From Bryobacterales bacterium (GTDB lineage: Bacteria > Acidobacteriota > Terriglobia > Bryobacterales > Bryobacteraceae), in NCBI GenBank assembly GCA_020851655.1, contig JADZCI010000306.1, positions 1-64,000 of the forward strand: DNA of 64,000 nucleotides, in the 5' to 3' direction. Below are positions 2,224-8,884 of the stretch, piece after piece. The translations under genes and the position numbers were made by a program. Every line of letters starts with the position of its first letter. Positions within the stretch are counted from its first letter, which is position 1. A model generated the notes under the pieces. That model was not told where the DNA came from. It made no database searches and saw only the letters and a program-made list of their open reading frames with translations.

Positions 2224-2265
2224 GTCCGCCCCAGACGCCACGCGGCGCACTTGAGAGAATGTGGG

Positions 2266-5200
2266 GTGGTGAACCCCGCGGCGGCAACGATAGCGATTGT
2301 GGCCGAAAAGCCTTCGGTTGGCCGCGATATCGCGCGCGTGGTGGGGGCCAATCAGCGGGGCGAAGGCTTCCTGCATGGCGGTGGATACGTGGTCACCTGG
2401 GCCATCGGCCACCTGGTCCAACTGGCGCAGCCTCACGAAATCAACCCCGGCTGGAAACGCTGGCGCGCCGACCTGCTGCCGATGCTTCCGCACGAATGGC
2501 CCCTGGTTGTCGGCGAGCAGACGAAGGATCAGTTTGAAGTCGTCCGCAGGATCCTGACGTCGCCGAAGGTCGGTGAAGTCGTGTGCGCGACAGACGCGGG
2601 GCGCGAAGGCGAGCTCATCTTCCGCTACATCTACGAAGCGGCGCACTGCGCCAAACCGGTAAAACGGCTGTGGGTGTCCTCGCTAACGCCGGATGCTATC
2701 CGTCACGGACTCGAGACGGCGAAGCCCGCCTCGGAGTACGATTCGCTGGCCGACGCCGCCCGCGGACGAAGCCGCGCGGACTGGCTGGTGGGCATGAACC
2801 TTTCGCGTGCCTATACCCTGGCGATGAACGAAGATCTGTCGGTGGGGCGCGTTCAGACGCCGACGCTGGCCATGCTGGTGGAGCGCGAGTTGGAGATCCG
2901 GGCGTTTGTTCCAGAGGACTACCGCGAAGTCGAGGCTACGTTTTCTCCCAATGGCGCGGACCGGTACAAGGGCACATGGTTCCGTCCGGGCGTGGAGCCT
3001 CTCGCCGCGGCAATGCGCCTGCCCGCGGAAGGCGAGGAAGCGGAGCAAATCGTCGCCCGCGCCCGCGGCGGCAAGGCGCACGTCGAATCCATGCGGGCGG
3101 AGACCCAGCGTATGGCTCCGCCGCTGCTCTACGACTTGACCGAGTTGCAGCGGCACGCCAACCGGCTGTTCGGGTTCAGCGCCCAGAAGACGCTGGAAGT
3201 GGCGCAGGCGCTCTATGAGCGGCACAAACTGATCAGCTACCCGCGAACCGACAGCCGGCATCTTTCGGCGGAGGTGGCCAAGACGCTGGCGAGGATTGTC
3301 GAAGTGATTCGCCCGGCATACGGAGATGCCGTTGCACCGGGCACGGGAGGGCGCCCGCTGGGGCGTCGCTACGTGGACGACTCCAAGGTCACGGACCACC
3401 ACGCCATCATTCCCACCGCCACCAAGCCGGGCGACCTGGATACCGGCGAACAGCGCATCTATGACATGATCTGCCGCCGCCTGCTCTCAGCATGGCATCA
3501 GGATTACCTATGGGCGGTGACCACCGTAATCACGCTCATCCGGAACGGCGAGATGGAAGACCGCTACCACTCAACCGGTACCCGGGTGGAGCAGGCGGGG
3601 TGGAAGGTCCTTGACGTGGCCCTACCCAAGCGAAAGAAGCAAGGCGGCGGGGAGGAAGCCTCCGAGCCGGACTCCAACGACCTGCCTGCTGTCCTCGCCA
3701 CCGGGCAGGAGCAACAGGTTCTCGACGTGGAGGCACGGCGCAAGAAGACGCGTCCGCCCAAACGGTTCACAGAAGCCACGCTGTTGACCGCGATGGAAAC
3801 CGCGGGCAAGACGCTGGATGAGAAAGAGCTGTCCGACGCGATGAAGGACAGCGGGCTGGGAACGCCGGCCACGCGCGCCGCCATCATCGAGATCCTGCTC
3901 AAACGCGGCTATGTCGAGCGCGACGGCAAATCGCTGTTGGCAACCGAAAAAGGGATTCGACTCATCGAGGTAGTTCACCCCGAGGTCAAGAGCCCGGCTA
4001 TGACGGGACAGTGGGAGGCGCGCTTGAAGAAGATTCATCGCGGCGCCGAACCGCTGCCGCCGTTCATGGACGGCATCGAGCGCTATGTCGAGGAAGTAGT
4101 GGGGAAGGTGAAAGCGGGAGGCGTGTGGCGGCCGGCGGTGACGGCCGCGGCCGCACCCCGTGGCGAAATGGCGCAGATGCCGGAACGGCGCGACAGCGCC
4201 GGGTTGGGTCCGGAGCGCCTGTTGCACGAACGTTTTGGGTTCGCCGCGTTCCGTCCCCATCAGCAGGAGGTCTGCGAAGCGCTGATCGGTGGCGAGGACG
4301 GCTTGCTGGTGATGCCGACGGGCGCGGGCAAGTCTCTCTGTTACCAGTTGCCGGGAATCGCTCGCGGCGGCACCACCCTGGTCATCAGCCCGTTGATCGC
4401 GCTGATGGAAGACCAGACGTCCAAGCTGCGTCAGTCGGGATTTCGCGCGGACCGGATTCACTCAGGACGAGACCGCGCGGCTTCGCGGCAGACCTGTATC
4501 GAGTACCTCAACGGGAGCTTGGATTTCCTGTTTATCGCACCGGAGCGCCTGCGCGTGCCGGGATTTCCGGAGATGTTGGCCAAGCGCAAGCCGGCGCTCA
4601 CCGCCATCGACGAAGCCCACTGCATTTCGCAATGGGGACACGATTTTCGTCCCGACTACCGGATGATCGGGCAATACCTGCCGTTGTTCCGCCCGGCTCC
4701 GGTGCTGGCCCTGACGGCAACGGCTACGGCTGTCGTACAGGAAGACATCGTTGGTCAACTGGCGCTGGAGACGCCACGGCGGTTCATTCACGGCTTCCGC
4801 CGGGAGAACCTGGCTATCGAGGTGGTGGAGGCGGCCCAGTCACGGCGCGCCGTCCTCGCCTCGGAACTGCTGCAACTCGAAGGACGCCTGCCCGCGATCG
4901 TCTATGTGCCGACGCGGCGGGCGGCCGAATCGCTGGCTGGGGAGTTGAGCGGCCTGTTCGCCGCCGCCTCATACCACGCGGGCCTCCTGCCCAAACGCCG
5001 CGACGAAGTGCAGACGGCGTTCCTGTCGGGCAAACTGCAGGTGATCGTCGCGACTATCGCGTTCGGGATGGGGATCGACAAGCCGGACATTCGTACCGTC
5101 ATTCACACGGCGATGCCCGGAAGCCTGGAAGGCTACTATCAGGAAATCGGCCGCGCCGGACGCGATGGCCTGCCGTCCCGCGTAATCCTGATGCAGGCCT

Positions 5201-6261
5201 ACTCCGACCGCCACACTCATGATTACTTTTTCGAACGCGACTACCCGGACACGGGTGTTCCGCGCCGGATCTTCGATTGCCTGGGCGAACAGCCGCTTCC
5301 GAAGGAGGCGCTCAGCCAAAAAGCCCGGCTGTACGGCGAAGAGTTCGATATTGCGCTAGAGAAGTTGTGGATTCACGGCGGCGCGGTCATCGACTACGCC
5401 GAGAACGTGACAGCGGGGACGGGCCAATGGGTGGAGTCGTACGAGGCCCAACGGCGCCAGCGGGAAATCCAGTTGGACCAGGTTCTGCGCTTTGCCGAAT
5501 GCAACCAGTGCCGCATGCAGGCGCTGGTGCGGCATTTCGGCGACCGCGGAGACCGCAAAGGCCCCTGCGGGATCTGCGATTTCTGCGCACCCGGCGACTG
5601 CCTGGCGCAGGCGTTCCGGCCCGCTTCGCATTCCGAAATCGAGGCGGCCACGGCCGTTGTCGCCGCACTGCGGAAAACCGGTAGCCTGGCCACCGGACGC
5701 CTGCATACCGACCTCGGGGGTGAGGCGACGATTCCGCGTAGGGATTTCGAGCGGTTGCTCGGCGGCATGGCGCGCGCGGGATGGGTCGAACTGGTGGATG
5801 CGACGTTTGAGAAGGGCGGCAAGAAGATCGATTTCCGGAAAGCGGCGCTGACACAACAGGGCCGTGACTTGGAGCCCGCCGCCTCGCTTTCGTTCACCGT
5901 GACCGAACCTTTGCAGTCCGTCCGGAGAGAACGCAAGCCGCGCAAGAGACGCGAGGCCAGGAAAGCCGGGGCCAAGAGGGCGCCGGCCGCCGTTGAGGCG
6001 CCGGCTGGGAAGCGCCCGGCGGTGAAAGCAGCCTCCGCGAATCACGAAGGTCTGATTAAGGCGCTCAAGGCGTGGCGCTTGGCCGAGGCCAGGCGGAAGG
6101 ATGTTCCCGCGTTTCGAATTCTCACCGACAAGACGCTGGAGGCGATTGCGGCAACTCAGCCTAAGAGCACGGCGGAACTACTAGCCATTTCGGGCATGGG
6201 GCTGCGGACGGTGGAGCAGTACGGTTCGGCGCTTTTCGAGATTTTGCGCCGGGCGGGTTAG
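2266..6261 (+). CDS. Fused DNA topoisomerase III - RecQ helicase
   Basis: One open frame of about 1,330 residues. Residue numbers here count from the TTG at 2251. Residues ~10-600 are a type IA topoisomerase of the TopB class: TOPRIM segment IAIVAEKPSVGRDIARV, the DAGREGE motif near 115, and the active-site segment ISYPRTDSRHLS with the catalytic Tyr near 330. A ~35-residue Ala/Pro/Arg linker follows. Residues ~655-1336 are RecQ: MPTGAGKSLCYQLP (Walker A, ~688), IDEAHCISQWGHDFRPDY (~785), TATAT motif, EIGRAGRDG (motif VI), the RQC zinc cysteines CNQC...CGICDFC (~1085-1120), a winged-helix-like part, a Lys/Arg-rich linker and an HRDC domain (~1265-1336). I prefer GTG 2266; GTG 2269 and TTG 2251 are alternatives. 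The predicted role is to dissolve double Holliday junctions or converge forks in one chain. Confidence 0.93.
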   Translation: MVNPAAATIAIVAEKPSVGRDIARVVGANQRGEGFLHGGGYVVTWAIGHLVQLAQPHEINPGWKRWRADLLPMLPHEWPLVVGEQTKDQFEVVRRILTSPKVGEVVCATDAGREGELIFRYIYEAAHCAKPVKRLWVSSLTPDAIRHGLETAKPASEYDSLADAARGRSRADWLVGMNLSRAYTLAMNEDLSVGRVQTPTLAMLVERELEIRAFVPEDYREVEATFSPNGADRYKGTWFRPGVEPLAAAMRLPAEGEEAEQIVARARGGKAHVESMRAETQRMAPPLLYDLTELQRHANRLFGFSAQKTLEVAQALYERHKLISYPRTDSRHLSAEVAKTLARIVEVIRPAYGDAVAPGTGGRPLGRRYVDDSKVTDHHAIIPTATKPGDLDTGEQRIYDMICRRLLSAWHQDYLWAVTTVITLIRNGEMEDRYHSTGTRVEQAGWKVLDVALPKRKKQGGGEEASEPDSNDLPAVLATGQEQQVLDVEARRKKTRPPKRFTEATLLTAMETAGKTLDEKELSDAMKDSGLGTPATRAAIIEILLKRGYVERDGKSLLATEKGIRLIEVVHPEVKSPAMTGQWEARLKKIHRGAEPLPPFMDGIERYVEEVVGKVKAGGVWRPAVTAAAAPRGEMAQMPERRDSAGLGPERLLHERFGFAAFRPHQQEVCEALIGGEDGLLVMPTGAGKSLCYQLPGIARGGTTLVISPLIALMEDQTSKLRQSGFRADRIHSGRDRAASRQTCIEYLNGSLDFLFIAPERLRVPGFPEMLAKRKPALTAIDEAHCISQWGHDFRPDYRMIGQYLPLFRPAPVLALTATATAVVQEDIVGQLALETPRRFIHGFRRENLAIEVVEAAQSRRAVLASELLQLEGRLPAIVYVPTRRAAESLAGELSGLFAAASYHAGLLPKRRDEVQTAFLSGKLQVIVATIAFGMGIDKPDIRTVIHTAMPGSLEGYYQEIGRAGRDGLPSRVILMQAYSDRHTHDYFFERDYPDTGVPRRIFDCLGEQPLPKEALSQKARLYGEEFDIALEKLWIHGGAVIDYAENVTAGTGQWVESYEAQRRQREIQLDQVLRFAECNQCRMQALVRHFGDRGDRKGPCGICDFCAPGDCLAQAFRPASHSEIEAATAVVAALRKTGSLATGRLHTDLGGEATIPRRDFERLLGGMARAGWVELVDATFEKGGKKIDFRKAALTQQGRDLEPAASLSFTVTEPLQSVRRERKPRKRREARKAGAKRAPAAVEAPAGKRPAVKAASANHEGLIKALKAWRLAEARRKDVPAFRILTDKTLEAIAATQPKSTAELLAISGMGLRTVEQYGSALFEILRRAG

Positions 6262-7429: not shown

Positions 7430-8884
7430 CTACTCGAGCCGGTAGTTGGGAGCTTCCTTGGTGATGATGACGTCGTGGACGTGGCTCTCTTTAAGTCCGG
7501 CGATGGTGACGCGGACAAACTGGGCGTGCTCCTGGAGTTCTGAGATCGTGCGCACGCCGCAATAGCCCATGCCCGCGCGCAGACCGCCGACAAGCTGGTA
7601 GACAAGTTCCGCCAGCGGGCCCTTGGAAGGCACGCGGCCTTCGATGCCTTCCGGCACCAGCTTGCCTCCGGCCTCCTGGGAGTAGCGGTCGGAACTGCCT
7701 TGCGACATTGCGCCAAGCGAGCCCATGCCGCGATAGGCCTTGAACGTGCGGCCCTGGTAGAGGATCATCTCGCCGGGACTCTCGTCGGTGCCGGCGAACA
7801 AGCTGCCAATCATCACGGAATCCGCACCGGCGGCGATGGCCTTGCTGACGTCGCCGGAGTACTTGATGCCGCCGTCGGAAATGACGGGGACCCCCGTGCC
7901 GCGCGCCGCCTTGGCGCTTTCGGCGATGGCGGTGATTTGCGGCACACCTGCTCCGCTGACGACCCGCGTCGTGCAGATCGATCCGGGGCCGATCCCCACT
8001 TTGATGCCATCCAGCCCCAGGGCGATCAGGTCGCGCGCGCCTTCGTATGTCGCCACGTTGCCCGCCACCAGGTCCACTTGCGGCAAGTGACGCTTGATGG
8101 TGACCACCGCGTGCATCACCCGCTCACTGTGGCCATGCGCGGAATCGATCACAATGACGTCGACTTTTCGCTTGACCAGTTCCTGCGCCCGCTCCAGGAA
8201 GTCCCCGGTCGATCCCAGCGCCGCGCCGACGCGCAAACGCCCCTGATTATCCTTGGCGGCGTTGGGGTATTTCAGTTTCTTCTGGATGTCCTTAACCGTG
8301 ATCAAGCCTTTGAGGCGGAACTGATCGTCGACCACCAGCAACTTCTCGACCCGGTGTTTGTGAAGTTCCTTCTGCGCCTCCTCGAGCGTCGTGCCTACCG
8401 GGACCGTGAACAGCGGTTCCTTGGTCATGACTTCGTGGATAGGCAGGTCGTGGCGGGTTTCGAACCGCAAGTCGCGATTGGTCAGGATACCGACCAGCTT
8501 GTTGTCCTTAACCACCGGAACGCCGGAGATCCGGTAGCGGGCCATGATGTCCAACGCGTCGCTGATCCGCTTGTCGGGTTCGACGGTGACCGGATCGACG
8601 ATCATTCCGGACTCGCTGCGCTTCACCTTGTCGACTTCCTCAGCTTGGCGCTCAATCGGCATGTTGCGGTGCATGATGCCGATGCCGCCCTGTTGAGCGA
8701 GGGCGATGGCGAGGTGAGATTCGGTCACCGTGTCCATGGCGGAACTGGTGATCGGAATGTTGAGTTGAATATTGCGTGTAAACAGCGTCCGTGTATCACA
8801 CTCCGCCGGGACAACGTTGCTCCGCGACGGTTTCAGCAGGACATCGTCAAAAGTAAGACCTTCTTCCAAGCGCTCTGGCAGCAT
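7430..8884 (-). CDS. guaB: Inosine-5'-monophosphate dehydrogenase
   Basis: IMPDH of 484 residues, catalysing NAD-dependent oxidation of IMP to XMP, the committed step to GMP. The barrel is split by two CBS domains (~95-205: [20 protein letters not shown] and [19 protein letters not shown]). The catalytic loop [20 protein letters not shown] holds the nucleophilic Cys near 300, and the mobile flap with [10 protein letters not shown] and DRYSQ is present. It lies upstream of ada on the same strand with a 65-base gap. An opposite-strand open frame is only its shadow. Confidence 0.97.

Follow-up and report, generated by a model that had tools for sequence, protein, structure and literature searches.

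Organization of the fusion locus

The window (the whole stretch of DNA that was analysed, 64,000 nucleotides long) contains a single open frame of 1331 amino acids with zero internal stops at positions 2266-6261 of the forward strand. The open reading frame, together with Pfam and NCBIfam models, identifies it as a TopB–RecQ fusion gene with a GTG start. A longer frame (2251-6261) could begin at a TTG at 2251; the GTG at 2266 is preferred because a stretch resembling a ribosome-binding site, GAGAGA, was seen by eye at 2253-2259. All Pfam matches lie above cut-off and run along the chain in the order Toprim (residues 10-139), Topoisom_bac (157-595), DEAD (663-825), Helicase_C (869-968), RecQ_Zn_bind (1059-1107) and HRDC (1261-1326), with a TopB half at residues 1-615, a linker at 616-651 and a RecQ half at 652-1331. 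The claim of an earlier sequence-only reading that a topoisomerase and a RecQ share one chain is thus borne out by the uninterrupted frame and the domain models. A stop codon or frameshift in the linker, which would have spoken against it, was looked for in the fusion frame and is absent.

Genes for RtcB and a PAS protein lie 5' of the fusion. Beyond its end, the opposite strand carries an Ada-type alkylation-repair gene followed by IMP dehydrogenase, and the Ada gene converges on the fusion, its end overlapping the fusion stop by four bases (6258-6261). The gene guaB is found near the fusion (7430-8884), and Listeria likewise shows the order guaB-recQ-topB (plasmid record NZ_LR134400.1, L199); this shared proximity is probably a coincidence.

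The TopB half comprises a TOPRIM domain (2293-2682), assigned by Pfam and alignment, with Glu14 and the DAGREGE motif at residues 110-116 (2593-2613), and a type IA topoisomerase core (2734-4050), assigned by Pfam and structure comparison, with the active-site Tyr325 (3238-3240) and Arg327. It scores above the cut-offs of both NCBIfam topB TIGR01056 (570.2 against 515.75 bits) and PRK07726 (669.3 against 597 bits). Its nearest solved relative by sequence is E. coli topoisomerase III (E 2e-91), which its predicted structure also matches in fold. The decatenation-loop region is nearly equal in length to that of E. coli topoisomerase III at low identity, and several relatives have insertions there. 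A complete topoisomerase with TOPRIM, DAGREGE and a catalytic tyrosine near residue 330 had been proposed, and this stands, the tyrosine being residue 325.

In the RecQ half, Pfam and motif alignment place helicase lobe 1 at 4252-4740, with Walker A (4312-4347; residues 683-694), DEAH (4609-4620), an aromatic-rich loop and a TAT motif; lobe 2 at 4870-5169, with motifs V and VI (GRAGRDG); and a zinc-binding domain at 5440-5586, with Cys1082, Cys1101, Cys1104 and Cys1107. An HRDC domain closes the chain (6046-6243; PF00570, E 1e-20), preceded by a low-confidence Lys/Arg/Ala-rich stretch (5914-6033). Motifs I-VI, the aromatic-rich loop and the four zinc cysteines are all present and near-invariant. 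The nearest solved relative by sequence is E. coli RecQ (E 3e-88), and the predicted structure matches the fold of its core. While the half passes the family model recQ_fam TIGR00614 (372.7 bits against a cut-off of 219.8), it falls below the strict equivalog models TIGR01389 (478 against 640.2 bits) and PRK11057 (368.5 against 1015). Judged by these scores, it is a member of the RecQ family but not the canonical orthologue.

Two features set this sub-type apart. Firstly, motif VI and the first zinc cysteine lie 105-117 residues apart in the fusion sub-type and its stand-alone relatives, compared with 43-49 in Listeria and four other canonical-type RecQs. The longer spacing is due to an inserted module of three helices followed by two strands, located after lobe 2 and ahead of the zinc site (5251-5427), recognized by AlphaFold and spacing comparison and missing from canonical RecQs. 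This module of ~65 residues has no match in Pfam and is common to fused RecQs, stand-alone RecQs of the sub-type and their 39%-identical outgroup. Secondly, the Pfam RQC winged-helix model finds no match in the RecQ half, even though the RQC zinc cysteines are present. AlphaFold predicts a winged-helix-like topology at the RQC position (5611-5865), and the predicted structure matches the E. coli RecQ core in fold; a winged helix here would be divergent. The description of this half as a complete RecQ thus needs one correction: it is a sub-type, with the zinc cysteines in place, an extra module and no match to the RQC model.

The two halves are joined by a Pro/Ala/Arg-rich linker of 36 amino acids (4111-4218), with pLDDT below 50 at residues 619-641. 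The linkers of relatives range from 25 to 198 amino acids and are Pro/Ala-rich without sequence conservation. With such variable and unconserved linkers, this segment is best read as a flexible tether between the halves. A joint structure model reached a pTM of 0.53, and the relative orientation of the halves is without confidence.

Distribution and history in Acidobacteriota

Topoisomerase III of this kind occurs in 134 of 250 sampled genomes of the order, and about 100 of the matches are uninterrupted frames of at least 1200 amino acids. The same full-length frame thus recurs in many independent genomes at 49-69% identity, including assemblies of one to few contigs (G005, G008, G019, G060). 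This recurrence bears directly on the concern that a mis-assembly or sequencing error joined neighbouring topB and recQ genes by erasing the stop that parts them. In favour of such an artefact, the host genome is assembled in 392 contigs, and at four loci (L085, L110, L119, L120) the frame changes between the two halves or within one of them. Roughly one hundred genomes with an uninterrupted fused frame, some of them in few contigs, refute it, and its probability is now negligible. When 20 shorter or edge-near matches were fetched, 16 were found to reach a contig end and two (L119, L120) to be broken by frame changes. Another (L110) is split between the halves, as is L085, and the last (L112, in genome G608) is a topoisomerase half with a clean end and no RecQ after it. 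Here (G608:C173:2500-8000) the frame was seen by eye to stop just past the TopB domain and to be followed by a small MazF/PemK-type toxin-like gene. We regard this locus as a rare secondary split leaving a lone TopB.

A phylum-wide sample of 396 genomes revealed fused frames also in families f10, f37, f40, f50 and f76, and in f5 the loci L081 and L150 are likely one fusion cut by contig ends. Besides Acidobacteriota, the survey took in plasmids, phages and the phyla to which a Rhizobium and a Clostridia MAG belong. None of the topoisomerase III matches from the Rhizobium's phylum (398 genomes, E limit 1e-110) or from the Clostridia MAG's phylum (209 genomes, E limit 1e-60) lay in a fused frame. 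Spread of the fusion by phages or plasmids was considered and rejected, as neither gave a fused match; a scan of viral contigs yielded RecQ-like matches only, with search patterns that lay within the helicase. Separately, RecQ-like helicases in open frames of 1650-1810 amino acids were observed in the order's second family (G002:C169:24211, G029:C38:8419, G037:C211:14965, G021:C162:1038).

The same domain order, which the sequence-only reading had suggested seeking in Acidobacteria, is therefore found in about 100 genomes of the order and in further families, and the fusion is old and widespread in the phylum. That reading had also called the arrangement new unless already reported in this clade. 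No published description of a TopB–RecQ fusion was found in the openly accessible literature that was searched. The arrangement is not peculiar to this genome, and sequence databases probably already hold it under automatically assigned names.

All catalytic and zinc residues examined, among them Glu14, Asp110, Glu114, Glu116, Tyr325 and Arg327 of the TopB half, are invariant in 39/39 fusions from several families. The dN/dS ratio is ~0.03-0.2 in both halves, a rough range since several dS values are near saturation, and points to purifying selection on TopB and RecQ alike. The histories of the halves differ in quick trees supported by SH-aLRT only. Fused TopB halves group together in a single clade (SH-aLRT 99), whereas a single clade of fused RecQ halves is rejected (p-AU 1.6e-69), with stand-alone RecQs nesting among the fused ones, for example the copies of family f4 and L090 of f3. 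Because of this TopB tree and these nested stand-alone RecQs, the most economical history would be one old fusion followed by loss of the topoisomerase half in several lines. An ancestral free RecQ with several late fusions would be less economical, as fused TopBs form one clade and fused RecQs do not. No remnant of a topoisomerase was detected beside the fourteen stand-alone RecQs tested. As RecQ survives alone repeatedly, and the topoisomerase half stands alone in at least one genome (G608), the covalent linkage is not indispensable.

A different outcome is seen in two f4 genomes, G339 and G379, in which the fused TopB is kept while helicase lobe 1 is decayed and lobe 2 is gone (L082:2028-4721; L083:1928-4552). 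The decayed lobe has lost motifs Ia and III, and its DEAH has become EEAE; each genome also carries an intact stand-alone RecQ elsewhere. Compared between these two genomes, dN/dS is 0.13 for the decayed lobe and 0.07 for TopB. The lobe is still constrained and may therefore have a structural or DNA-binding role.

The host genome (5.7 Mb, 96.9% complete) was searched with profiles for a separate RecQ and TopB pair, the presence of which would have refuted the proposal of the sequence-only reading. Neither a second RecQ above the family cut-off nor a further type IA topoisomerase of any kind was found. The fusion is the sole type IA topoisomerase detected there, topA included among the missing; as most relatives carry topA, its absence is probably an assembly gap. 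In family f1, to which the host belongs, a canonical RecQ is present in 9 of 42 fusion carriers versus 22 of 38 non-carriers (Fisher p 0.0012; 0.009 on genus-collapsed counts), a contrast in which kinship is handled by genus collapse alone and carrier status was transcribed from tables. The states of fusion and canonical RecQ swap in genera g8, g11 and g27, and some relatives have a separate canonical RecQ alongside the fusion. The lower frequency of canonical RecQ among f1 carriers suggests that the fusion supplies RecQ function.

Function and relation to known systems

Partnership between RecQ and topoisomerase III is textbook knowledge in eukaryotes. The BLM/Sgs1–TOP3alpha–RMI1(–RMI2) dissolvasome likewise physically joins an HRDC-bearing RecQ to a type IA topoisomerase III, and the same logic of unwinding plus strand passage is expected of the fusion. 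The eukaryotic assembly is, however, non-covalent and bridged by RMI1, whereas the fusion is joined covalently and nothing RMI1-like was recognised in its chain. Even for the human complex, a review describes it as unknown if the catalytic domains of the two enzymes ever come into contact (PMC4109787).

The bacterial situation is less clear. Each half of the fusion is homologous to one of E. coli TopB and RecQ and shares all catalytic residues with it; the E. coli proteins are encoded by separate genes and form no stable complex, unlike the single chain with its module-bearing RecQ. Two papers cite co-action of E. coli RecQ and topoisomerase III in vitro (PMC4191389, PMC13244152). In E. coli genetics from 2026, by contrast, the partner of topoisomerase III is RecG rather than RecQ, and the same study states that physical RecQ–topoisomerase III interaction has never been observed (PMC13244152). 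A bacterial partnership is therefore not to be assumed. The Listeria recQ and topB genes are adjacent, 23 bp apart and probably form an operon; in contrast to the fusion, they encode two proteins, recQ comes first and the RecQ is of the canonical short-spacing type.

The fusion is probably a single-chain RecQ–topoisomerase III strand-passage enzyme that acts on intermediates of recombination and replication. The N-terminal half would cut one strand, pass another through and reseal the break. The C-terminal half, as an ATP-driven 3'-5' helicase, would open the duplex and bring two entangled helices together, and the flexible linker would hold the topoisomerase gate beside the single strand exposed by the helicase. 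Unwinding and decatenation could then proceed as one reaction, with the tethered topoisomerase acting where RecQ opens DNA. Candidate substrates include double Holliday junctions or hemicatenanes, D-loops and converging forks. From the intact active sites of both halves we strongly infer that both enzyme activities exist; we only infer that they would be coupled, and on which main DNA substrate. The 'preassembled dissolvasome' of the sequence-only reading, dissolving double Holliday junctions, may accordingly be put no higher than a plausible role.

A more ambitious proposal is an allosterically coupled single-chain dissolvasome that became fixed early on in several lineages of Acidobacteriota and took the place of canonical RecQ and free topoisomerase III, with the inserted module and the divergent winged helix adapted to the coupling. 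This is possible, though we hold it tentatively. Rather unlikely is a fusion for co-expression or co-targeting, in which each half has its own substrates and the link serves only to fix their stoichiometry or to recruit them together, the two not being mechanistically coupled. The highly variable and unconserved linker, the separation of the halves in several lineages and the low pTM of the joint model would all fit such an arrangement. However, RecQ and topoisomerase III are precisely the enzymes that cooperate in eukaryotes and, for the E. coli proteins, in vitro, and the single chain persists in several families of Acidobacteriota, in which neither active site varies. Further, coupling is compatible with a flexible tether.

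Reverse gyrase, which also combines an SF2 helicase and a type IA topoisomerase in a single chain, raises the thought of a machine for directional, ATP-dependent supercoiling change. Its helicase sits at the N-terminus and is not a true RecQ, and its topoisomerase is of a different sub-family from that of the fusion. The difference in order noted from the sequence is confirmed, the topoisomerase being N-terminal in the fusion, and kinship with reverse gyrase was rejected on the score of its model, far under the cut-off (TIGR01054, 107.4 against 471.7 bits). The halves resemble topoisomerase III and RecQ instead, and the hosts give no sign of hyperthermophily. The two halves of reverse gyrase are tightly packed, so the long and variable tether of the fusion also counts against a machine of this kind, which we consider very improbable.

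Significance for the RecQ–topoisomerase III partnership

For the single-chain strand-passage enzyme favoured above, the fusion makes the disputed bacterial partnership of RecQ and topoisomerase III directly testable. A two-enzyme strand-passage machine in one chain of 1331 residues, with 1:1 stoichiometry, would suit single-molecule and structural work, and its natural split and half-decayed versions offer built-in controls. The age and strong conservation of this natural fusion are evidence that RecQ and topoisomerase III act as a unit in one bacterial phylum.
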